From Chitinophagales bacterium (GTDB taxonomy: Bacteria > Bacteroidota > Bacteroidia > Chitinophagales > Chitinophagaceae): a stretch of DNA of 64,000 nucleotides. The notes under the pieces are model-generated. The model worked only from the letters and a program-made list of their open reading frames with translations, did not search any database and was not told where the DNA came from. Made by a program: the position numbers and the translations under genes. Positions 36,983 to 48,124 of this stretch are shown piece after piece. The number at the start of each line of letters is the position of its first letter. Positions within the stretch are counted from its first letter, which is position 1. The stretch covers positions 1 through 64,000 of the forward strand of contig JAAFIK010000012.1 of assembly GCA_013298665.1 (NCBI GenBank). Reading direction: 5' to 3'.

Positions 36983-39793
36983 ATGCCGAGACACACCAGT
37001 AAAAACATTACTGCCGACAATGAGAGCGTCCTTAAAGAACTATCGGTTCAATTTGCTACAAACTACTGCACAGTTTCATTTGGCGAAAAAGAGAAAAAGC
37101 ATGTCAAACTCACTGAAATTTTTAAACCAGAAAGCGAAACGATTAAAAAATACGGCTCTGGTGAAGCTAATGTTGAGTTACTTGGGCAGCACAGAAATAT
37201 TGTAGTCATCGGTGCCGGCGCATCATACGACTCATTTAAGGATATTGCATTAGGCAAAGAGGTAGTGGAAAATTTGAAGAAAAAATATGAAGAGAGGCTT
37301 TTTGCTATACCAGCCCTAAAGGAGAAGTATGATACAGCTTTATATGAACTCAAACTTCAGGGACGTGATCTTGACTTCGAGAACTATTTATCAATACTAT
37401 CAGAGTTAATGTTAACGCCTGATGGCATTAGGCAAGAAATACATGAATTTACCGATTTCAGGCATTCACCAAGTCTTTTTTATGAAATAATTGCACACTT
37501 ATTTAAACACTCATTTATTGATGTTATCATCAATTTCAATTTTGATGAGCTTTTGGACAACGCTATTGAGGAAGAATTGGGACGAGATAACTACTACCAC
37601 ATTCTTTCAGATGGAGATTGTATTGACATTGAAGAAATAATGGTTGACGGCAGACTGAAAGTGCCTATTTATATCAAACCTCATGGAACAGTGAGTCATA
37701 AGTCTACACTTAGATTTACAAAACGTCATTACCTTGACGTTCCTGACCAGATCAAGAAAATACTAATTGATCTTGTAAAAGGCAAAAGGGGCGAAGGAAA
37801 AATACCCATAACTAGTGTAAACCTGATCGCAATTGGGTATAATATGCAGAGTATTGAGTTTACTGCAATTCTCAATGAGCACTTACCTCCAGATTCAAGA
37901 ATATACCATTTCATGTATGAAAAAATGGAGCCTGGTGAAAATGGAAAATACATCCAGACTATTTTAGCTGACTTTTATGAACGTGCATTAAAGTATGTGA
38001 TTGAAAAAAACAATAGTTCCCTGGAACCAATAAATATAGAAGCATTCAATGATAAACTATATAAAAGAATTGCGATCGAAGGCTTTAACACTATTGATAA
38101 GGAGTCGCAAAGGAACGAACTTACTTCTCCCTATGCAGAATTGTTCTCCTATATCTGGAGGGAGACCTTTTATCAGTTTGTGGAAACCTATAGACCCAGA
38201 AGTATAGGAAGGCATGAAATAATTGCTTATCTGTTTTATCATACGGATTTTGCAAACGCAAGAGTAACTAATCGAAAAAGATTAAGGGATTACTACCAGG
38301 ACAGGGTAAACTATTTCAGAGACAAAGTTTTGGTCGAAATAGCAATTGCCATCAATCGTAATAATGGCATGATTGACATTACAGAAATCCTCAAGGACAG
38401 AGTTGGAGTTTATTATGATTTATATATAAAAGCTTGTAAAAGGTTTGAAACGTCACAGGTCACAAAAATATATACCCTTTATGAGTTGATTGACGAGTTT
38501 AGTGCTGACATAGAAAAAGATTTTTCGTACTCCCGGCATTTTTTCAGGTTATCCCCGATTACAAATGAAATATTAGATAAATGTAAAAAAGAAATAGACA
38601 AGACTGAATCCCATTTCCGGAAATGGATTATAATCAAACGGGATGATAAAGGTAGTATAACAAAAGACAATTCGTTAATTGATCAAGTATTCCATTTGCT
38701 ATCAGCGCAAAACACTAATTTAATAAGCCGCTCTGTGTTATACTTTCTTTTTAAAAGCGATCTCTTGTCTGCCAGGTTTATTCAAAATTTAAAGGAAAAC
38801 CATGATAAGCATGTTTATAATGCCAGGATTCCTGACAACGATAACGAAGAAGTCTTGAAGCTTATTTCAGAGATTGGGCGACTATTCAGGAAATCTGTGA
38901 ATAGCCATTACTACCAAATCAGGCCAAGGTTTAAAGACAGACTGAACTATCTTGTTGAAAGTTTTTCCAGAAGAAAAATCCAGCACACTAATCTGGCATT
39001 AGAGTATAATTTCAGACATATGCTTCTGAAAAAGGATTGGGACAGACTACTGATTATTTCAGAGACAGGAAGTCTCCTGGACTTCCTGAATAAAACGGAG
39101 ACTCAAGCTGATACCAATGCTACCAACAGCTTTTTATTAGGCGATAAAAAGATCATCATCATCAATGCCTATGAGGCTATCCAGCAACTTTTTCCAATTC
39201 AGGGTACAGAAGGCGCGGCAAGAGAGCAAAAAGACAGGCTGCTAAAAAACAGAGAAAGAATAGCAGACAATTTTAAAAAGATCATGCTTAATGTCAAACC
39301 AGCTAATAGTTTTGTAACCCCTTTAACAATTCCTGCGGCTCAACACAATCAACACATCATCTTATTTCTAAAGAAAGTTGAAAGCGGTATGCTTAATCAT
39401 GTCGCACAAGAATACCCGATTTACAAGTTAGCTGCTGGTGGTGAATCAAGGGCATTTTCAATGGTTGGTTCTTTTTATATGCACCGTCCCGGGTTCTCCA
39501 ATTGTATAAACCCGATTTTTGTTGGAAATGACCCGTATGGGAAAGATAAAAGCGTCATTGAAAACGATCTTAAGAAAATAATCCGGGTATTTGCCATTTA
39601 TTTTTGCAGGGCAATAAACTTCGAGAATATTGACAAATCGAAACTGAAAGGTATTAAACAAGATACAAGTAATTTTCTTCGGTGGAGCTGGGAGGAAGAA
39701 AAACAGTATATTGAAGAGTTTTTAAATTATATGTATGATCTGGACAAGGATGATACAGATTTATTAGAAGCGATCATTCTTCCTGAGGAATAG
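36983..39793 (+). CDS. Large SIR2-domain protein, candidate antiphage NADase
   Basis: 936 residues, no signal peptide. The SIR2 domain (about 60-345) has NIVVIGAGASYDSF (GAGAS at 77-81), FIDVIINFNFDELLDNAI (Asn186, Asp188), YIKPHGTVSHKS (His234) and VNLIAIGYNMQSIEF, so the NAD-binding and catalytic residues appear intact. The following 590 residues are helical and charged, with no recognised domain, as in DSR2-type and other SIR2 defence proteins in which the C-terminus senses phage proteins. It is markedly more AT-rich than typA before it and the ATP-grasp gene after it, and no partner gene is attached. This composition and isolation suggest horizontal acquisition as a one-gene defence module. 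The defence role is inference. Confidence 0.8.
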   Translation: MPRHTSKNITADNESVLKELSVQFATNYCTVSFGEKEKKHVKLTEIFKPESETIKKYGSGEANVELLGQHRNIVVIGAGASYDSFKDIALGKEVVENLKKKYEERLFAIPALKEKYDTALYELKLQGRDLDFENYLSILSELMLTPDGIRQEIHEFTDFRHSPSLFYEIIAHLFKHSFIDVIINFNFDELLDNAIEEELGRDNYYHILSDGDCIDIEEIMVDGRLKVPIYIKPHGTVSHKSTLRFTKRHYLDVPDQIKKILIDLVKGKRGEGKIPITSVNLIAIGYNMQSIEFTAILNEHLPPDSRIYHFMYEKMEPGENGKYIQTILADFYERALKYVIEKNNSSLEPINIEAFNDKLYKRIAIEGFNTIDKESQRNELTSPYAELFSYIWRETFYQFVETYRPRSIGRHEIIAYLFYHTDFANARVTNRKRLRDYYQDRVNYFRDKVLVEIAIAINRNNGMIDITEILKDRVGVYYDLYIKACKRFETSQVTKIYTLYELIDEFSADIEKDFSYSRHFFRLSPITNEILDKCKKEIDKTESHFRKWIIIKRDDKGSITKDNSLIDQVFHLLSAQNTNLISRSVLYFLFKSDLLSARFIQNLKENHDKHVYNARIPDNDNEEVLKLISEIGRLFRKSVNSHYYQIRPRFKDRLNYLVESFSRRKIQHTNLALEYNFRHMLLKKDWDRLLIISETGSLLDFLNKTETQADTNATNSFLLGDKKIIIINAYEAIQQLFPIQGTEGAAREQKDRLLKNRERIADNFKKIMLNVKPANSFVTPLTIPAAQHNQHIILFLKKVESGMLNHVAQEYPIYKLAAGGESRAFSMVGSFYMHRPGFSNCINPIFVGNDPYGKDKSVIENDLKKIIRVFAIYFCRAINFENIDKSKLKGIKQDTSNFLRWSWEEEKQYIEEFLNYMYDLDKDDTDLLEAIILPEE

Positions 39794-40012
39794 TAATAGA
39801 CAAATGAACCTATACATTTTATTGCTAATCCAATTAGAAAAGATGCAATTTAGATATTTGCAAGCTATCGTACTGATTTTCATTTAGTTGTGGTATTACT
39901 ACAATTGAGTAAGACGATCTTATTTCGGAACTGATCATTCGTCTTTTTTCGATCTGTTTTATAGAAAAGTATTTTTTACGCCACATATCCCCCGCCCTCC
40001 ATATCTTGCAGG

Positions 40013-41092
40013 ATGCCCGATAATATTTTTGTGTGGGTACTCGCCCCGCACCTGCAAACAAGCGACCCCAACCTGGATTATTACTACGATTTTTCCCAAA
40101 GCATCGAAGAATATACCCGTGCTTTTGCCGTATTGGAACAGCCCTGGCAGTGGCAACCCGTTACCATGGAGAATTTCAAAGCCATTATTGATGGTATTGT
40201 GGCCCGCAAGGATGGATACACGCCACTGTTTTTCAACCTCTGCGATGGCGATGAGGTCAACGGCACACCCGGTATTTCGGTAGTACGGTACCTGCGTGCA
40301 CAAAAACTGTGGTTTACCGGTGCCGAAGTGCTTTATTACGAACTTACCACCTCCAAGATCGTTATGAAAGCAGCTTTTGAAAAAGCAGGCGTGGCTACAG
40401 CACCCTGGCTGGCCATTACCCGCCCCGATCAGCCCCTCACCGGCACCTGTACCCAACTCGGTACACCCGTCATTGCCAAACCCGCAGTAAGTGGCGGGAG
40501 CCTTGGTCTCGGCATTAAAAATGTGGTGTACAACGATACTGCACTGGGTGAAGTGGTGCAGGACATCTACAAAGGCTATCATGGCTGGGATCTTGCCTTT
40601 GGCGGTATCGTGGCCGAAGCATTTATAGCAGGGTCGGAATACACCACCCTGATTGTTGGCGATTGGCAGCAACCCGGCAAAGCCATCATTTATCCGCCCG
40701 TAGAAAGGGTATTCAACAAGACCCTGAAAGAAGAAGAAAAATTCCTCAGCTTCGACCGGCTCTGGGAAACCTATGATGAGGAAAAACCCATCGGTGCTTA
40801 CGAAGACTTTTACAATTATTTTCCACCCCAAAACGAAGCCATCAGCCAGGCCATCAACACCCTGAGCTGGCAAGCCTATTGCGCCGTGGAAGGCACAGGT
40901 TATGGCCGGGTAGACCTGCGTATGGACAGGGCTGCAAACAAGCTCTATGTTCTCGAAGTCAATGCACAATGCGGGCTCAGTGAAGACGAGAACTATACCT
41001 CCATCGGTGCCATCCTCCGCCTCAGCAACAACAGCTTTGCCGGCCTGGTACAGCAGGTGATTCAGGAAGGTATTGCACGCACGGCAAAATAA
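40013..41092 (+). CDS. ATP-grasp ligase (D-Ala-D-Ala ligase-like)
   Basis: 359 residues. The ATP-grasp fold shows PVIAKPAVSGGSLGLGIKNV (lysine and glycine-rich loop), GGIVAEAFIAGSEYTTLIVG, and the metal-binding end GRVDLRMDRAANKLYVLEVN followed by QCGLSED, similar to D-alanine-D-alanine ligase but with an altered active-site tail. The N-terminal 100 residues include FFNLCDGDEVNGTPGISVV, like the substrate domain of Ddl. It should join two carboxylate/amine substrates with ATP. It is the first gene of the ATP-grasp/SET cluster (40013-44357), 110 bp before the fusion gene. Substrates are unknown. Confidence 0.82.
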   Translation: MPDNIFVWVLAPHLQTSDPNLDYYYDFSQSIEEYTRAFAVLEQPWQWQPVTMENFKAIIDGIVARKDGYTPLFFNLCDGDEVNGTPGISVVRYLRAQKLWFTGAEVLYYELTTSKIVMKAAFEKAGVATAPWLAITRPDQPLTGTCTQLGTPVIAKPAVSGGSLGLGIKNVVYNDTALGEVVQDIYKGYHGWDLAFGGIVAEAFIAGSEYTTLIVGDWQQPGKAIIYPPVERVFNKTLKEEEKFLSFDRLWETYDEEKPIGAYEDFYNYFPPQNEAISQAINTLSWQAYCAVEGTGYGRVDLRMDRAANKLYVLEVNAQCGLSEDENYTSIGAILRLSNNSFAGLVQQVIQEGIARTAK

Positions 41093-41136
41093 AAACAAAC
41101 CCCTGTCGTTACAGCCATAAAAACATTGTGGTATTA

Positions 41137-41167
41137 TTTTCTATATACCGATTAAACTTTAGCTTTG
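41137..41167 (+). promoter_or_regulatory. Promoter candidate for the ATP-grasp-SET fusion gene
   Basis: TTTT (41137-41140, one mismatch to TTTG), 19 bp, TAGCTTTG (41160-41167). The ATG is at 41203. Confidence 0.45.
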
Positions 41168-41202
41168 AAAAAACAGTCCAACCAGCTTCTTAGTAATACT
41201 GC

Positions 41203-42651
41203 ATGAAAATTTGTGTACTTCAACCCGACTATTCCACGTCTTCGGTCGATTATCAATACTACGATCCGGCGCGTAACCTCGCACCCCTGCTGCCCGGTGT
41301 ACAGGTCGATCATATTTTACTCAATAAACTGACTACCTACCGCCAGTTGCACAGCCTGAAAAACAAGGGCTACGATTGTTTTGTAAATCTCTGCGAGGGC
41401 TACCTGGAATGGGAAGTACCTTCTGTTGACGTGATTTATACACTCGAATTACTGGAACTCCCCTTTACCGGCCCCACCACCCAGCTCTATGACCCCCCAA
41501 AAGAACTGATGAAATATGTGGCTTATACCGAAGGCATCAATACACCCGCATACGCACTCATCCGCAACAGCAATAATATTGCAGCACAATGCCATCACCT
41601 CCGCTTCCCCCTGTTTGTAAAGCCCGCCAAAGCAGGCGACAGCCTGGGGATAGACGATAAATCGCTCGTACACCACGCCACTGGTCTGGAGAGCCAGGTA
41701 ACGCATTTGCTGGAAACCTACGAGGAGGTACTGGTGGAAGAATATATACCCGGCCGGGAGTTTACCGTACTGGTGGCCGCCAATGCTGATGACCATAAAA
41801 GCAGCACGGCATTTACCCCGGTAGAATTTATCTTCCCCGAGGGCCGTACATACAAAACCTACGCACTCAAAACATCCGAGTTGCATCCCGAGGCCAATAT
41901 CCCGGTTTCAGACAAGGTGCTGGACAAGCAATTGCGCGAAGCTGCCCGGCGTATATTCCGGAGTTTTGGCGGACAAGGCTATGCCCGCATGGATTTCCGG
42001 ATGGATGAGAAAGGCAATCTCTATTTTCTGGAAGTCAATTTTACCTGCTCGGTTTTTTACAGCGACGGCTATGAAGGCAGTGCCGATTATATCCTCAAAT
42101 ACGATGGTATCGGGCAGGCAGGCTTTTTACGGCACATCATTGCCGAGGGTATTGCCCGTCACCGGCGGCGCCAGAAAAAGTATGTGATGCAGGGTAATGC
42201 CATCGCCGGTTTTGGGATTTATGCTAAAACCAACCTCATTGCCGGAGACATCCTGTTTAAAGGGGAGGAAAAACCCCAGCGCATCGTTACCCGCAGTTTT
42301 GTGGAACAACACTGGAACGATGACGAAAAAAAGCTCTTCCGCCATTATGCCTACCCCATCAGCAGCGAAGTTTATATCCTGTGGGACCATACCCCGTCTG
42401 AATGGGCACCGCAAAACCATAGTTGCGACCCCAATACGGGTTACGTGGGGCTGAATGTAGTGGCACTGAGGGATATTGCGAAGGGAGAAGAGCTTACCCT
42501 CGATTATGCAACCCTGCTCGACGATTCCGCAGAACCCTTTGACTGTCAATGTGGTACGGGCAATTGTCGCGGAGTCATCCAGGGTATTCCCGGCAACTCG
42601 GTCACCCTGCGTGAAGAAAACCTGCTTCTGCAGCAGTCACCCCGCGAATAA
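41203..42651 (+). CDS. ATP-grasp ligase fused to a SET-domain methyltransferase
   Basis: 482 residues with two enzymatic modules. Residues 1-320 are an ATP-grasp ligase, paralogous to the preceding gene: FVNLCEGYLEWEVPSVDVIY, FPLFVKPAKAGDSLGIDD (Lys140), VEEYIPGREFTVLVAA and ARMDFRMDEKGNLYFLEVNF. Residues about 325-465 are a SET domain with GFGIYAK (336-342), NHSCDPN (405-411), GEELTLDYA (428-436) and a post-SET cysteine set CQCGTGNC (448-455). SET domains transfer a methyl group from SAM, usually to lysine. The fusion implies that ligation and methylation act on one product or one carrier. Bacterial SET proteins exist, but this pairing is rare in my experience. The substrate is unknown. Confidence 0.88.
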   Translation: MKICVLQPDYSTSSVDYQYYDPARNLAPLLPGVQVDHILLNKLTTYRQLHSLKNKGYDCFVNLCEGYLEWEVPSVDVIYTLELLELPFTGPTTQLYDPPKELMKYVAYTEGINTPAYALIRNSNNIAAQCHHLRFPLFVKPAKAGDSLGIDDKSLVHHATGLESQVTHLLETYEEVLVEEYIPGREFTVLVAANADDHKSSTAFTPVEFIFPEGRTYKTYALKTSELHPEANIPVSDKVLDKQLREAARRIFRSFGGQGYARMDFRMDEKGNLYFLEVNFTCSVFYSDGYEGSADYILKYDGIGQAGFLRHIIAEGIARHRRRQKKYVMQGNAIAGFGIYAKTNLIAGDILFKGEEKPQRIVTRSFVEQHWNDDEKKLFRHYAYPISSEVYILWDHTPSEWAPQNHSCDPNTGYVGLNVVALRDIAKGEELTLDYATLLDDSAEPFDCQCGTGNCRGVIQGIPGNSVTLREENLLLQQSPRE

Positions 42652-42655
42652 CCTT

Positions 42656-42687
42656 TTTGGGCGGCGACCTGCTTTTTTTTACCTTTG
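42656..42687 (+). promoter_or_regulatory. Promoter candidate for the ABC-like and SET genes
   Basis: TTTG (42656-42659), 20 bp, TACCTTTG (42680-42687). It lies just past the fusion gene stop and about 190 bp before the next start, so the second half of the cluster may be transcribed separately with a long leader. Confidence 0.6.
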
Positions 42688-42878
42688 CATTAAACCTCTG
42701 AGAGGCTGCGGCGTCCAAAAGGCAATTAACCCCGCGAACTTTGATACATAAAGTTTTTCTGCAGGCACTACCAAACTTGCAGAACATACGGGACGCTCAC
42801 GAATAAACATTACGATCCATTAAATGTGTATGGAGGGTATACAACCCTGCTGGAAGGCTATTGATTAAAAAAAATGAT

Positions 42879-43826
42879 ATGTCCAGGCTGTTTGTCATAA
42901 AAAATATCTTTCTGAAGCACAAGTACCAACTGCTGCTTACCTACCTGCTCTTCGGGGCGGAGATGCTGGGCTTACTGTTACGTCCTTTTTTCCTCGGTGA
43001 AGCGATCAACGACCTGATGAAGGGCAGTTACCGCGGATTGATTTACCTGGCCTCTTCCCATGCCATCTGGCTGGTCATCGGTACCATACGCCACATGTAC
43101 GATACCCGTACTTACTCTGCCATTTATACCTCCCTCGTCACCCGTCTGCTCACCCGCAGGTTTTCGGTAACCGAAGTATCAAAGCTGAGTGCGCACTCTA
43201 CCCTCGCCCGTGAATTTGTTGATTTTCTCGAATACGACCTCAACTTCGTCATCGAAGCGGGTTACAATATACTCGGCTCCCTCGTACTCCTTTACTATTA
43301 CGATGCCAATGTAATGATGCTCTGCCTCACCATACTGATACCCGTGATGGTACTGAGCCACTTTTACGGCAAGCGGATGAAACGGTACAACAAATTGAAA
43401 AATGATGAACTGGAGAACCAGGTGGATATTATTGGTACGCGCGACCGGAAAAAAATCCTCCACCACTACAGCAATCTCCGCCGCTGGCAGATCCGTATTT
43501 CGGATATGGAGGCCTGGAATTTCGGCATTATGGAAATTATGGCTGCTGCGGTACTCACCATTTCCTTACTCATTACCGTAAAAGTATCGCCCGGTAATGC
43601 CATAATGGCCGGCAGTCTTATCGGCATTTACAATTACATCCTCAAATTTGTAACAGGGCTCGATACCATACCGTATATGGTACAAAGGATCACGTCCCTG
43701 CGCGACATTATGCAACGCATCGAAGTACAGGCAGAAGAAACAGATATACCCGGGAAGCCCGAACAGGTCAGGCTGATTACAGTCAAAGAGAAGGCCGCCG
43801 GTAAGAAACGGGAGGCCAATATATAG
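42879..43826 (+). CDS. ABC-type six-helix membrane domain without an ATPase
   Basis: 315 residues from MSRLFVIKN (ATG 42879; a TTG at 42861 is less likely). About six membrane segments are visible, for example YQLLLTYLLFGAEMLGLLLRP, GYNILGSLVLLYYYD, VMMLCLTILIPVMVLSHFYG and MEIMAAAVLTISLLITVKV. The layout and the cytoplasmic loop between helices match the exporter-type ABC transmembrane domain (ABC_membrane_3-like). The sequence ends shortly after the last helix; no Walker A or signature motif follows. It could use an ATPase encoded elsewhere or serve as a membrane scaffold. Its place inside the ATP-grasp/SET cluster suggests handling of the product at the membrane. Confidence 0.75.
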   Translation: MSRLFVIKNIFLKHKYQLLLTYLLFGAEMLGLLLRPFFLGEAINDLMKGSYRGLIYLASSHAIWLVIGTIRHMYDTRTYSAIYTSLVTRLLTRRFSVTEVSKLSAHSTLAREFVDFLEYDLNFVIEAGYNILGSLVLLYYYDANVMMLCLTILIPVMVLSHFYGKRMKRYNKLKNDELENQVDIIGTRDRKKILHHYSNLRRWQIRISDMEAWNFGIMEIMAAAVLTISLLITVKVSPGNAIMAGSLIGIYNYILKFVTGLDTIPYMVQRITSLRDIMQRIEVQAEETDIPGKPEQVRLITVKEKAAGKKREANI

Positions 43827-43862
43827 CTGCAATTTTCTTATAAACCCATTAAATTTCTATTC

Positions 43863-44357
43863 ATGATTACCGAAGCCCGGCGCACCCTCATCAGCAGGTA
43901 TACTATTGCTGAAGTTTGGCAGGACACCAGTAATGGCCATCATTCGCTGCACAGTACCGGCGCTTATCAGCCGGGAGAAGTGATCAGTGCTTTTACCGCA
44001 GCCAGTATATGGGCAACCCCCAGTTACCTTACCGTACAAATCAGCAACGACAAACACATTATGCTTGCACCACAATTCCTGGAGTACATCAACCACAGTT
44101 GCGACCCCAATGCTTTTTTTGATACCACCAGCTTTCAGCTCGTTTGCCTGAAGCCCATCTTTCCCGGCGACCAGTTTACTTTTTTTTATCCCTCTGCGGA
44201 ATGGAATATGGCACAGCCTTTCGCCTGCCGGTGCGGATCTGCCAACTGTATTGGTGAAATTACCGGTGCTTCACAATTACCCGAAGCATTGCTTTACAGG
44301 TACCGGTTTACGGATTTTATCCGCAGCAAGCTGGATGCAGCACAGCAGCAGGATTAG
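43863..44357 (+). CDS. Small SET-domain protein
   Basis: 164 residues, mostly a single SET domain. NHSCDPNAFF (77-86) is the SET core, and CRCGSANCIG (122-131) with Cys122, Cys124 and Cys129 forms a post-SET zinc site. The usual D-Y near the end of the domain is replaced by FTFFYPSAEW (105-114), keeping the tyrosine. The N-terminal part STGAYQPGEVISAF fits the first SET strands. It should methylate a lysine or another amine with SAM, unless it is a non-catalytic partner of the fused SET domain at 42180-42600. The last gene of the cluster, 36 bp after the ABC-like gene; its TAG overlaps the SNF2 stop codon of the opposite strand. Confidence 0.85.
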   Translation: MITEARRTLISRYTIAEVWQDTSNGHHSLHSTGAYQPGEVISAFTAASIWATPSYLTVQISNDKHIMLAPQFLEYINHSCDPNAFFDTTSFQLVCLKPIFPGDQFTFFYPSAEWNMAQPFACRCGSANCIGEITGASQLPEALLYRYRFTDFIRSKLDAAQQQD

Positions 44358-47300
44358 CTGAACAGGTACTCCACATCCGATTTGCTGAGGCTCTTTACAA
44401 AGCCACTGTCGTCGGTAATGAGTTCCTTAGCTAAGACGCGTTTACGTTCCTGCAGTTGCAATATTTTATCTTCAATGGTATCCACACAAATCATGCGGTA
44501 CGCAAAAATATTTTTGGTTTGACCGATGCGGTGCGTCCTGTCAATGGCCTGTTGCTCAACCGCGGGATTCCACCATGGATCAACGATATAGACATAGTCT
44601 GCAGCCGTAAGGTTGAGCCCCACGCCACCCGCTTTGAGCGATATAAGAAAGACCCTGCATTCGTCATTGTTCTGGAAGTTCTGTATAGCCCGCTCGCGCT
44701 CAACTGATGAGGTGCTGCCATCAAAGTATTCAAATACAATATTGGCCTCCTTCAGTTTTTCGCGGATAAGCCCGAGCATCCCCAGAAACTGTGAGAACAC
44801 AAGCGCTTTATGATCGCCGATATTTTCTGCGATCTCGCGGGTCAGTTCATCCAGTTTGATGGAATGGTTCGGATATTTTTCCTCCTCATTCAGTATCGCC
44901 GGACTGTCGCAGATCTGCCGAAGCTTCATCAATCCCTGCAGGATGGTAAGCTGGCTTTTATCAATACCCTGTTCATCAATAACACCCAGAATCCTGTCGC
45001 GGTAACTGTTGCGGTAAGCCTCGTATATTTTCCGCTGCTCGTCCTCCATTTCGCAAAAGAGAATCGTTTCTGTTTTTTCCGGGAGGTCTTTAGCCACCTG
45101 CTCTTTTGTACGGCGGAGGATAAAAGGATATAATAATTTGCGCAGGTGTTCCTTCTGGTCTTTCTCCCCAAACTTATCGATGGGCGTGGCAAACTCATTG
45201 CGAAAAAATTCCATACTGCCCAGCAAACCCGGATTGAGAAAATTCATCTGGGCAAATATGTCGAAAGTATTATTCTGTAAAGGCGTACCACTCATGCACA
45301 AACGATTTCTGGCATTGAGCAGACAGGCCGCTTTGGTTACCTTGGAAGCCGGGTTTTTGATGGCCTGGCTCTCGTCGAGGATAACATAATCAAGTTCGAT
45401 TTTGAGCAGGAGTTGTATATCACTGCGCAGTGTACCATAAGTGGTGATCACCACATCAAACGACTGGAGTTCATCCACGCTGCGGGTACGCATACTGCCA
45501 TGGTGAATGGTATGGGTAAGCAGGGGTGTAAACTTCCGGATTTCATTGGCCCAGTTGTAGATCAGTGTGGTGGGGCAAACCACCAGCGCTTTCAGGCGGC
45601 CATTAACCTCACGGTAATGACGAAGCATACTCAGCGCCTGAAGCGTTTTGCCCAAACCCATATCATCGGCAAGGATCCCTCCCCAACTTACATCATTGAG
45701 GTAATTAAGCCACTGAAAGCCCGAAGTCTGGTAAGGCCGCAATACCGCTTCCAGTTCTGCCGGGGGCGGGGTTTCGGGTATGCTCTTAAACGTACGCAGT
45801 TTCTCAAACTTTGCATCAAGTGCAAAAGACAATTCCTGTTCTTCCCGGTTTTCATAAAGCTCATCAATAACACTCAGGTGGTATTTGCTCAGCCGCAATT
45901 CATTGCTGCGGCCTTCACCCACTTTAAACAACAGCGCATAACGCTTCAGCCATTCTTCCGGCAGTATACCCAATGTGCCATCGCCGAGGTGTACAAACGA
46001 TTGCTTATTTCCCAGCGCCTTCTTGATATCGGCAATGCCCACCCGCTGCCCGTCGAAATCGATCTCCACTTTAGCATCAAACCAGTCTAAGCCACTGCTC
46101 ACATGAATATGCGTGGATGGTCGTGAGGTATTGAACCGGAAATTATTTAACGACTCGAAACCATATACGGGTATCTTCATGTCCTTCATCGCATCAACAA
46201 ACAGGAAGAACCAGTTGTTGCGCAGTACGTCGGCGCCTTTAAGCACAAGGCTGTTGGTATCTGTACGATGAATAAACTGTGAGTGCAGGGCCTCAAGCCT
46301 GGTAACAAATGCCTGCTCTGCATTTTTGTTGCGCTGCACGATCAGTATTTTATCCCCCTCGGGTATCGTGATCGTTTCTTTATCGGTATGCCTTACTTTG
46401 TATCCCTTATAAGCAAACACCGGCTGGAATACCAGAAAATCACCTTTCTCCTGGAGCAGCAGTTCTACTTCCGGCTCTCCTTTCTTCACTTCCCTGATGA
46501 GCGATTTATCGAACTCCACATGATATTCCCTGGTAAGCGGCAACACAACCTTTTGCATCTGTTCTGCCCAGTTGTCCTTACCGAGGTGAATGCTGCCGGT
46601 AAGCAAAAAACGTTCTACCTGCATCACGTCTTCCGGCCGCTCCCAGGTATAAAAGGTATGTTCATGCAAAAAAAGCATAGGGCTGGCACAGGCATTATCA
46701 CTTACCGGCAACAGCACACCGTTGATCTTCACCATACATTGCAGCTCAAAGCCCCGCGGCGCAGCAATAATCTTAAACACGGGCAGCAGAAAATTGCTGC
46801 TCAGGTCAGCCGGCACCAGTGCATCCGTTTTAAACGCCTTTTTCTCCGGCAGGTAAAAGGTAAAAGCGCCGCCAGCCAGGTCGGTAAACAGTTTCTTTAT
46901 TTTGGGATGCAGGTATTCCGCAATCAGCGAGCGGGTTTCTTCCGGTAGTTCATCACCCTCATTATGGATAATGTTTTCCCAGATGCCGCTGAAGGGGGAG
47001 TTGCGGTTGAGGTATTTGTTTACTTCACTGCCCTGCAGTTTGCGCAACTGCTGCAATGTCATTTTATCCTCCTCATTAAATACTTCGGTATTCACAAAGC
47101 GGGCCAGGTCGATGCGTTCCACCTTACCCGCAAAGCCATCCAGGCCCTCCCTGGGGTCACCCTGAACGGCATCGAGCGTGATAAACGGATAATTGGCCGG
47201 GTTGGCATTGAGCACAATACCCAGCTTCTTCGCTGCCATATCCTGTGCAGGCAGGGTCTCATCACCATTAACGGGAACCTCGGGCATAACCACCACTTCG

Positions 47301-48124
47301 GTCTTTACCGGTGCAACAGCTACCCCGGTTGCAGCTACGCGTTTAATCGAAGGATCAAGTACTTTCAGAAAAGGTTTACCTTCTTTATACGTAAACTCGA
47401 ATTTACCGGCCAGGTCATCGTCCAAACTGTACCCGTAAATCTGCAGGAGTTTATTTTTCTCTTTATCCCAGTTGCGGATGGTATCGAAATAATAAGGTCC
47501 GTAGGCATTGAGCAATTGCAGGAAAAGTGTCGTCTTATGTTCACAAAGCGGATGCTCCGTTTCGGCACAGGAGCAGGACGTATCAAAATTCCGCTCGTCA
47601 TTCTTCTGGATAACCAGCGGGAAACTGTCGCTGCCAAGTTCAAGGGTAGCTTCCACCCTTTCGTCAACTGCCTTCTGGATATTTGCCTTTGTCGTTCTGA
47701 GGATCTGCTCAGCAGCCGTATAAATGGCCGGCGACGACAGCAGTTTGATCATTTTCAGGTCGATATGCTTCATCTTGGCTACCGTATGCCGCTGGCTGTA
47801 CTTGATGGCACTGCTGCCCAGCATATTCTTGTCGAGCATTTCCTGCAGGTGAAAAAGTGCAGCAGTTTCGTGGCGGCAGATATCACCAAGGTTGTACGGA
47901 CAGGTACAGCGCAGGGACAGTGTTTTAGGATCGGTATATTTCTGGATATATACTTTGTAATACGTTGTATACCCATCATCTTTTACCCGGAACGTAACCG
48001 CACCCATCAGCTCGTCGTGCTCAATCAACTCCACAAAACCAGACGTGTGAATTTTTTTACCCCGGCGCACGACTTCGTCCGTACCGTTGTTGTAAATATG
48101 CTTGATCAGATGTGATAATGCCAA
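44354..48124 (-). CDS. SNF2-family helicase with SWIM zinc fingers
   Basis: 1256 residues. The N-terminus carries a SWIM finger (LRCTCPYNLGDICRHETAA) and a second Cys/His set (CSCAETEHPLCEHKT). The ATPase core is in the last 500 residues: ADDMGLGKTLQAL (Walker A), VILDESQAIKN (a D-E-x-x box with Ser-Gln), SGTPLQNNTFDIF, and the helicase C motifs LVFSQFLGMLGL, SLKAGGVGLNLTAADYVYI and QAIDRTHRIGQT. This is the bacterial SNF2/SWIM type thought to remodel protein-DNA or RNA polymerase complexes. No ATG is available: TTG at 48122-48124 starts MALSHLIKHIYNNGTDEVV, and a TAA lies five codons upstream. Its 3' end overlaps the SET gene by 3 bp. Confidence 0.92.
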   Translation of the reverse strand: MALSHLIKHIYNNGTDEVVRRGKKIHTSGFVELIEHDELMGAVTFRVKDDGYTTYYKVYIQKYTDPKTLSLRCTCPYNLGDICRHETAALFHLQEMLDKNMLGSSAIKYSQRHTVAKMKHIDLKMIKLLSSPAIYTAAEQILRTTKANIQKAVDERVEATLELGSDSFPLVIQKNDERNFDTSCSCAETEHPLCEHKTTLFLQLLNAYGPYYFDTIRNWDKEKNKLLQIYGYSLDDDLAGKFEFTYKEGKPFLKVLDPSIKRVAATGVAVAPVKTEVVVMPEVPVNGDETLPAQDMAAKKLGIVLNANPANYPFITLDAVQGDPREGLDGFAGKVERIDLARFVNTEVFNEEDKMTLQQLRKLQGSEVNKYLNRNSPFSGIWENIIHNEGDELPEETRSLIAEYLHPKIKKLFTDLAGGAFTFYLPEKKAFKTDALVPADLSSNFLLPVFKIIAAPRGFELQCMVKINGVLLPVSDNACASPMLFLHEHTFYTWERPEDVMQVERFLLTGSIHLGKDNWAEQMQKVVLPLTREYHVEFDKSLIREVKKGEPEVELLLQEKGDFLVFQPVFAYKGYKVRHTDKETITIPEGDKILIVQRNKNAEQAFVTRLEALHSQFIHRTDTNSLVLKGADVLRNNWFFLFVDAMKDMKIPVYGFESLNNFRFNTSRPSTHIHVSSGLDWFDAKVEIDFDGQRVGIADIKKALGNKQSFVHLGDGTLGILPEEWLKRYALLFKVGEGRSNELRLSKYHLSVIDELYENREEQELSFALDAKFEKLRTFKSIPETPPPAELEAVLRPYQTSGFQWLNYLNDVSWGGILADDMGLGKTLQALSMLRHYREVNGRLKALVVCPTTLIYNWANEIRKFTPLLTHTIHHGSMRTRSVDELQSFDVVITTYGTLRSDIQLLLKIELDYVILDESQAIKNPASKVTKAACLLNARNRLCMSGTPLQNNTFDIFAQMNFLNPGLLGSMEFFRNEFATPIDKFGEKDQKEHLRKLLYPFILRRTKEQVAKDLPEKTETILFCEMEDEQRKIYEAYRNSYRDRILGVIDEQGIDKSQLTILQGLMKLRQICDSPAILNEEEKYPNHSIKLDELTREIAENIGDHKALVFSQFLGMLGLIREKLKEANIVFEYFDGSTSSVERERAIQNFQNNDECRVFLISLKAGGVGLNLTAADYVYIVDPWWNPAVEQQAIDRTHRIGQTKNIFAYRMICVDTIEDKILQLQERKRVLAKELITDDSGFVKSLSKSDVEYLFS

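Follow-up and report, generated by a model that had tools for sequence, protein, structure and literature searches.

A conserved cassette of ATP-grasp ligases, SET methyltransferases and an ATPase-less ABC-type membrane protein in Chitinophagaceae, a candidate pathway for a methylated short peptide

The window analyzed here is a stretch of 64,000 nucleotides (nt) from the 4.83-Mb genome of a Chitinophagales bacterium (G000; contig C13, GenBank JAAFIK010000012.1). It carries a cassette of four plus-strand genes, which encode two Ddl-like ATP-grasp ligases, one of them fused to a SET domain, an ABC-type membrane protein and a small SET methyltransferase. The features of the cassette are as follows (lengths in amino acids, aa).

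40013-41092, plus strand: AG1, Ddl-like ATP-grasp ligase, 359 aa (PF07478, 2e-14)
41203-42651, plus strand: AGSET, ATP-grasp domain (about residues 1-325) and SET domain (about 330-470), 482 aa (PF07478, 2.5e-24; PF00856, 8.5e-10)
42657-42687, plus strand: weak candidate for a Bacteroidota-type promoter motif 5' of the ABC3 gene (TTG-N20-TACCTTTG; without a shuffle control)
42879-43826, plus strand: ABC3, six-helix ABC-exporter-type membrane protein without a nucleotide-binding domain (PF13748, 7.5e-44); coordinates from the conserved ATG, the listed open reading frame (ORF) of 321 aa beginning with TTG at 42861
43863-44357, plus strand: small SET methyltransferase, BurB-like, 164 aa (PF00856, 8.2e-7; best PDB match BurB)

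The ORFs and the Pfam matches agree with the four genes as the initial annotation had described them. ATG at 42879 is more likely to be the start of ABC3 than TTG at 42861, because Met7 of the listed ORF is kept in at least 97% of 32 family members. A longer antisense ORF (39959-41098, minus strand) overlaps AG1; it was taken as spurious because AG1 on the plus strand is kept in 37 of 37 relatives.

These relatives are 37 loci found by an AGSET scan of genome contigs, in which the genes were assigned by profile searches on six-frame ORFs (matches of at least 40 bits). They are labelled mostly as Chitinophagaceae, Lacibacter, Ferruginibacter and unclassified Bacteroidota metagenome-assembled genomes (MAGs); a few labels, one Saprospiraceae and one Beijerinckiaceae among them, may be binning errors. 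In all 37 loci, AG1 and AGSET share a strand with AG1 upstream, and in 36 they are direct neighbours. The exception is L039, where two ORFs, apparently for a DNA methylase and for a restriction endonuclease of the BglII type, lie between the two (L039:5437-7037), and this restriction-modification pair is probably an insertion into the cassette. The small SET is found beside the ligases in 29 loci and ABC3 in 28. The commonest gene order is SET-AG1-AGSET-ABC3 (22 loci, with the cultured Lacibacter cauensis, L034, as one example), followed by SET-AG1-AGSET (7), AG1-AGSET-ABC3 (6) and AG1-AGSET alone (2). The window has the order AG1-AGSET-ABC3-SET, which is shared by G091 (L113). Conservation of the neighbourhood had been named as a check that might overturn the reading of these genes as a cluster, and the neighbours turned out to be kept together.

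The presence of the genes was compared in 36 genomes of the genus, including that of the window, and in 395 genomes of the phylum Bacteroidota (E<=1e-100 for AGSET and AG1, E<=1e-20 for the small SET). The 37 loci and the 36 genus genomes share organisms, and one further genus genome, G148, belongs to the phylum sample only. P values are from Fisher tests that ignore phylogeny. AGSET was found in 22 of the 36 genus genomes, of which 20 have the small SET and 20 have PF13748; neither was found in any of the 14 genomes without AGSET (3e-8 each). In the phylum sample, AGSET is present in 17 genomes and the small SET in 15, all of them among the 17 (p 2.6e-25), and AG1 is confined to exactly the six genomes that have the close type of AGSET. 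PF13748 is present in 25 of the 395 genomes and is tied to AGSET loosely, occurring in 4 of the 6 close-type genomes (p 2e-4). The ABC3 proteins of these four genomes score 463-498 bits against the cassette profile, compared with 113-151 bits for 14 other PF13748 loci examined. When the threshold for the small SET was loosened to E<=1e-8, it was matched in 20 genomes, two of the additions (G268 and G397) being AGSET's own SET domain. In G269 the four genes lie at three sites, SET and AG1 (L163), AGSET (L097) and ABC3 (L164), and in G349 the small SET (C1:1219313) lies 1.7 Mb from the ligases (C1:2930477). Thus the genes can be retained jointly without adjacency.

The same partners are also joined within single proteins. 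AG1 and AGSET are fused in four protein clusters of 831-844 aa (P0017, P0021, P0022 and P0068). A second type of AGSET, type II, is fused with a C-terminal small SET in three clusters of 647-653 aa (P0321, P0347 and P0354), and the C-terminal SET of these proteins scores 151-160 bits against the small-SET profile. No fusion of the small SET with AG1 turned up, and no search was aimed at such a fusion. The four genes behave as one functional unit: the expectation that two ligases and two SET proteins would not stand together by chance is borne out by conservation, co-occurrence and fusions. A plasmid or viral origin of the cassette was rejected, since neither AGSET (E<=1e-15) nor the type-II fusion P0321 (E<=1e-20) had a match in 72,556 plasmid records and none of the exact patterns of P0321 was found in viral contigs.

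Median intergenic gaps in the relatives are 16 nt between the small SET and AG1 (n=29), 15 nt between AG1 and AGSET (n=37) and 105 nt between AGSET and ABC3 (n=28). The short gaps in 37 relatives suggest one operon, at least for the three enzymes, and disfavour the view that the genes are a cluster rather than one operon. That view went with candidate promoters before the second and third genes, a claim that is weak. The Bacteroidota-type promoter motif TTG-N20-TAnnTTTG has one instance at 42657, 5' of ABC3, and a lone TAGCTTTG lies at 41160, 5' of AGSET, both without a shuffle control; a sigma-70 scan gave 7 sites when 6.7 were expected.

SET enzymes are best known for methylating lysines of proteins, for example of the DNA-packaging proteins in organisms with nuclei. 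Both SET proteins of the cassette have the features of SET methyltransferases, namely the NHSCxPN motif, the catalytic-site Tyr and the post-SET cysteines. The residues N405, H406, C408, Y435, C448, C450 and C455 of AGSET are kept in at least 97% of 54 sequences, and N77, H78, C80, Y109, C122, C124 and C129 of the small SET in at least 97% of 45. When the small SET was compared with the PDB, BurB proved to be its closest relative of solved structure (4.2e-13), and the best histone methyltransferase followed at 3.7e-5. The SET domain of AGSET scores 38.4 bits with human KMT2A and 39.1 bits with BurB. The small SET and the BurB-type SETs have in common (T/S)-x-Q-x5-H before HSCxPN and Y-x-x-(T/A)-E after the catalytic-site Tyr, two motifs that are our own reading of 18 aligned rows. 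Only the small SET combines both motifs with BurB as best solved relative. In the SET tree, the BurB-like rows and the small SETs meet at an unresolved fork, and the small SETs of the cassettes form one group (98/94). This group includes those of genus g80, which is of the same phylum and another class and whose second SET has only part of the motifs.

BurB of Burkholderia thailandensis (PDB 9l4t/9l4v) is a SET enzyme that acts on a small molecule. According to the part of PMC12542666 covered, it converts free methionine into S-methylmethionine, a step that leads to dimethylsulfoniopropionate (DMSP), and it binds Met through main-chain atoms. Before BurB, natural-product methyltransferases had been found only in other structural classes, as stated in the part of PMC7496086 covered. 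The Eleftheria orthologue of BurB shares with the small SET the two motifs, HSCxPN, the catalytic-site Tyr and the post-SET cysteines. The bur pathway differs from the cassette in that it includes a decarboxylase, a transaminase, a dehydrogenase and a nonribosomal peptide synthetase-polyketide synthase (NRPS-PKS), and no ATP-grasp partner was seen in the same part of PMC7496086. The initial annotation had suggested that an amine is methylated, and this is not borne out; BurB, the small SET's closest relative of solved structure, methylates the sulfur of free methionine. The methylated atom may be a methionine sulfur or an amine such as lysine N6.

Plasmid-borne kin of the small SET were also viewed in their surroundings. 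The SET of an Eleftheria plasmid, a close BurB homologue (1.7e-73), stands beside aminotransferase and aldehyde dehydrogenase genes, and that of a Sphingomonas plasmid (2.2e-32 to BurB) overlaps a diaminopimelate-decarboxylase-like gene. These settings indicate that some small-SET kin work in amino-acid metabolism. The Eleftheria terrae region (L182:1-16411) resembles a bur cluster: around the BurB homologue there are genes for PKS/thioester-reductase, for an aminotransferase and for an aldehyde dehydrogenase. The SET and decarboxylase-like pair of Sphingomonas paeninsulae (L183:7863-9601) is reminiscent of BurB plus BurI, and a DMSP or sulfonium pathway is possible there. G260 encodes a pair of large proteins side by side (483 and 617 aa; L179:6989-10318) that have weak SET-profile scores and very long branches in both the SET and the ATP-grasp tree.

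AG1 and AGSET belong to the ATP-grasp superfamily: both match PF07478 above the gathering score and have conserved ATP/Mg residues. K156, R299, D301, E315 and N317 of AG1 are kept in at least 97% of 43 sequences, and K140, R262, D264, E277 and N279 of AGSET in at least 97% of 54; their roles are presumably those of the corresponding residues of Ddl. Because catalytic residues are kept to this degree in AG1, AGSET and the small SET, all three enzymes look active. The best family matches of AG1 and AGSET are D-alanine--D-alanine ligases, but both stay far below the NCBIfam cut-offs for Ddl (77 vs 243 bits for AG1, 95 vs 245.65 bits for AGSET). Their catalytic Asn is followed by a conserved stretch that is unlike the NTxPGMT motif of Ddl, and AGSET differs from Ddl also in its fusion to a SET domain. 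A separate 335-aa Ddl-like frame is present in the genome of the window (C12:46934), and in the ATP-grasp tree the Ddl-like genes from four other genomes branch on their own.

Other Bacteroidota have cousin tandem Ddl-like ligases, which share about 30-37% identity with the ligase part of AGSET. They stand with genes for a GNAT and a KamA-family aminomutase (L109, L111), a KamA (L103) or a GNAT (L107), and a single-ligase locus, L108, has a KamA-type gene. The one KamA scored was below the lysine-2,3-aminomutase cut-off. A pathway for an acylated beta-amino-acid peptide is possible for these clusters. In the L057 cassette, the last 4 nt of AGSET are shared with a GNAT gene, which hints that the cousins and L057 share a logic of ligases plus a modifying enzyme. 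That this GNAT is an orthologue of a cousin GNAT is unsupported, with 26% identity to the one compared. In the ATP-grasp tree, which carries a long-branch warning and lacks the AG1 of the window because the antisense ORF was called there, AG1 and AGSET group with each other (96/79) and the cousins stand elsewhere. Descent of AG1 and AGSET from the KamA/GNAT-linked tandem ligases is therefore not claimed. Gamma-glutamyltranspeptidase genes were seen near the type-II AGSET of G268 (L098:10294-12099) and near the lone small SET of G316 (L181:6237-7952).

ABC3 is, as had been described, a six-helix ABC-type protein without an ATPase: it matches PF13748, it has no ABC ATPase domain, and its hydropathy, read in overlapping windows, is compatible with about six membrane segments. 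The conserved acidic residues E34, E132 and E225 lie inside predicted membrane helices (32 sequences). No ORF of at least 150 aa in the window has both Walker A and LSGG; across the 37 loci, 2 of 410 such ORFs have both, each about 1150 aa long and more than 3 kb from ABC3. Thus ABC3 lacks a nucleotide-binding domain of its own or in an adjacent gene, and an ATPase elsewhere in the genome was not sought. A similar case is SbmA, an ATPase-less, proton-driven peptide transporter of the ABC fold with eight helices per protomer, according to the part of PMC13316013 covered. ABC3 resembles SbmA/BacA in having an ABC-type transmembrane domain without an ATPase and acidic residues in predicted helices, and differs from them in its Pfam family and in its roughly six predicted helices, so it is not a member of the SLiPT (SbmA/BacA) family.

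In genus g80, AGSET is preceded by a small SET and followed first by an ABC protein with Walker A and LSGG and then by another small SET. Both genes that follow AGSET were found in all four loci examined; the preceding small SET is in the ORF lists of L101, L102 and L116, and in G282 a protein search located it just upstream. One of these ABC proteins matches PF00664 and PF00005 in Pfam, and another best matches MsbA-type and peptide exporters in NCBIfam, below the cut-offs. Since an export-type ABC transporter occupies the membrane slot in g80, we infer by analogy that the product of the cassette is exported. A role of the membrane protein in anchoring the product, which had also been suggested, gained no support, the full transporter in g80 favouring transport.

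The most likely reading, in which we have moderate confidence, is that the cassette serves the synthesis and export of a short methylated peptide, di- or tripeptide-like and made without the ribosome. With S-adenosylmethionine as methyl donor, the small BurB-like SET would methylate either a free amino acid or the nascent product. Each Ddl-like ATP-grasp domain would activate a carboxylate by way of an acyl phosphate and couple it with an amine, so that one or two amide bonds would be formed in total. The SET domain of AGSET would methylate the substrate or the product of its own ligase on the same polypeptide. ABC3 would carry the product across the inner membrane without an ATPase of its own, perhaps using the proton gradient in the manner of SbmA. 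The anatomy of the genes, the conserved catalytic residues, the strong co-occurrence, the pairwise fusions and the complete ABC exporter in the corresponding slot of another lineage were observed in the sequences; the order of the reactions, the substrates, the direction of export by ABC3 and the energy coupling are what we infer. Ligation, methylation and transport had already been put forward in the initial annotation, and with the genes conserved, co-occurring and fused, this is still the best reading.

Two parts of the surroundings bear on the nature of the product. Joining to a carrier, as proposed before, is not supported, because there is no carrier among the four genes and no other family occurs within 6 kb in more than 7 of 38 loci (the 37 related loci and the window). 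Nor was there a family of short plus-strand ORFs (20-110 aa, within 700 nt on either side or in the gap between AGSET and ABC3) in more than 9 of the 38 loci, in a blastp search at E 1e-3 in which the window fell into none of the groups shown and which a short or fast-changing precursor could escape. A ribosomal peptide substrate is therefore less likely, and a graspetide or other cluster for a ribosomally synthesized and post-translationally modified peptide (RiPP) was rejected for want of a widely conserved precursor ORF.

Several observations weigh against the peptide pathway or against the unity of the cassette. ABC3 is missing from 9 of the 37 loci, of which L040, L045, L061, L065 and L066 end in or soon after AGSET and the other four do not. 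Among genomes with AGSET, PF13748 is absent from G148, G349, G008 and G027 (the contig of G027 ends in AGSET), and the small SET is absent from the genus genomes G015 and G019 (G019 is 67% complete, with AG1 at a contig start) and from the type-II genomes G268 and G397. The last two suggest that the ligase-SET protein can function alone. Conversely, G074, G260 and G316 have small-SET matches at E<=1e-8 without AGSET. The SET domains of AGSET lack the BurB motifs, as do two generic SETs aligned, and the small SET itself is only about 37% identical to BurB over 92 aligned residues and 34.5% to the Eleftheria protein. Because of this low identity and of the main-chain binding of Met, the substrate of the small SET is not readable from its sequence. 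Of the four plasmid loci viewed, those from Streptomyces and Rhizobium have no comparable amino-acid pathway next to the SET.

Instead of a small molecule, the target could be a protein. The ATP-grasp enzymes would add amino acids to it, as RimK and tubulin ligases do, the SETs would methylate its lysines, and the membrane protein would be the target or an anchor. Protein lysine is the classical SET target, and the SET domain of AGSET matches KMT2A and BurB alike. A possible parallel is TTLL12, which has a SET-like and a tubulin-ligase-like domain in one protein, but it is eukaryotic and does not catalyze histone methylation (PMC3520985, in the part covered). No further gene or short ORF is widely common beside the cassette, though an unlinked target would escape notice, and in g80 a complete exporter stands where the membrane protein would be. 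Ddl-like ligase domains, as found here, belong to a small-molecule class, and the small SET is BurB-like. On balance, protein modification is unlikely.

We regard as similarly improbable that the product stays inside the cell as a compatible solute or protectant, in the form of a methylated zwitterionic dipeptide comparable to acetylated-dipeptide or DMSP-type osmolytes, with the ABC-type protein recovering what leaks out. The GNAT and/or KamA-family genes beside the cousin ligases are reminiscent of N-acetyl-beta-lysine osmolyte genes, and a GNAT gene overlaps AGSET in L057. The BurB step, too, leads to DMSP (PMC12542666, in the part covered). However, the best family matches of the g80 transporter are of the export type, the tree parts the cousins from AG1 and AGSET, subject to the long-branch warning, and the L057 GNAT is distant from the cousin GNAT compared. 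It is very unlikely that AG1 and AGSET are alternative Ddl enzymes that alter peptidoglycan termini in cell-wall synthesis or antibiotic resistance: Ddl is their best family match, but the low scores, the separate Ddl-like genes and the different stretch after the catalytic Asn all speak against it. The assumption of chance neighbours from unrelated pathways, to which the unusual gene order of the window with the small SET at the far end might lend itself, is rejected with near certainty by the distribution, the unlinked retention and the fusions, and G091 has the same order.

Since no additional gene is found in more than 7 of the 38 loci, the surroundings vary and the cassette stays. The commonest extra neighbour is a PIF1-like helicase (7 of 38 loci, three members scanned), followed by a thioredoxin-like gene in 6 loci and by downstream genes common to six Lacibacter-like loci. 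The thioredoxin-like gene (105-134 aa), which we assign as such from its WCGPC motif, is located directly upstream of the small SET in L031, L033, L034, L036, L038 and L067. Small conserved peptides with an FT(A/T)A(D/E)LW-type terminal motif and then a basic tail are encoded downstream of the cassette in L048, L049 and L058 (3 of 38 loci). In the window, the cassette is flanked by a SIR2-like gene on one side (936 aa, 36983-39793, plus strand) and by a convergent SNF2 helicase gene on the other (44354-48124, minus strand). The SIR2-like protein matches PF13289, with weak PADLOC matches, and its gene has a G+C content of 0.36 against 0.478 for the window; it is possibly a horizontally acquired defence gene. 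A defence system was rejected for the cassette itself, ABC3 giving the only PADLOC match among the four proteins, a weak one (0.0052).

No description of a pathway with ATP-grasp and SET domains was found among 5.39 million open-access papers, subscription papers being outside the scope. A 2009 survey of ATP-grasp gene neighbourhoods may touch on such a combination. In the same literature, the matches that join ATP-grasp with SET domain concern TTLL12 and drug side effects, in the parts covered, and Ddl and SET domain come together in none of the matches listed on biosynthetic gene clusters. A term search in the part covered of a review of bacterial SET proteins (PMC3980110) met with no mention of Bacteroidetes, Chitinophaga, ATP, ligase or fusion. 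The parts of the cassette are of known kinds, and their combination and fusions appear to be undescribed in the literature covered.

More broadly, and more tentatively than for the pathway itself, the cassette may stand for widespread, undescribed bacterial peptide metabolites that are made by ATP-grasp ligases and SET methyltransferases, outside the bur/DMSP route, and exported by a secondary, ATPase-less exporter of the ABC fold. Two MAG proteins of the type-II ATP-grasp-SET kind, among the best 120 of 3727, are named as Caldilineaceae and Pyrinomonadaceae, and they would, if this is true, extend the class beyond Bacteroidota. Several proteins of the family that databases name 'protein-lysine N-methyltransferase' (names seen among the best 120 of 3631, 1485 and 3727 proteins) would then be misnamed. 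The four-gene set would be a concrete and testable system, with ABC3 as a candidate for a new secondary transporter. As a second SET-based pathway, tied to its ligases by fusion, it would make SET domains a recurrent tool of bacterial small-molecule chemistry.

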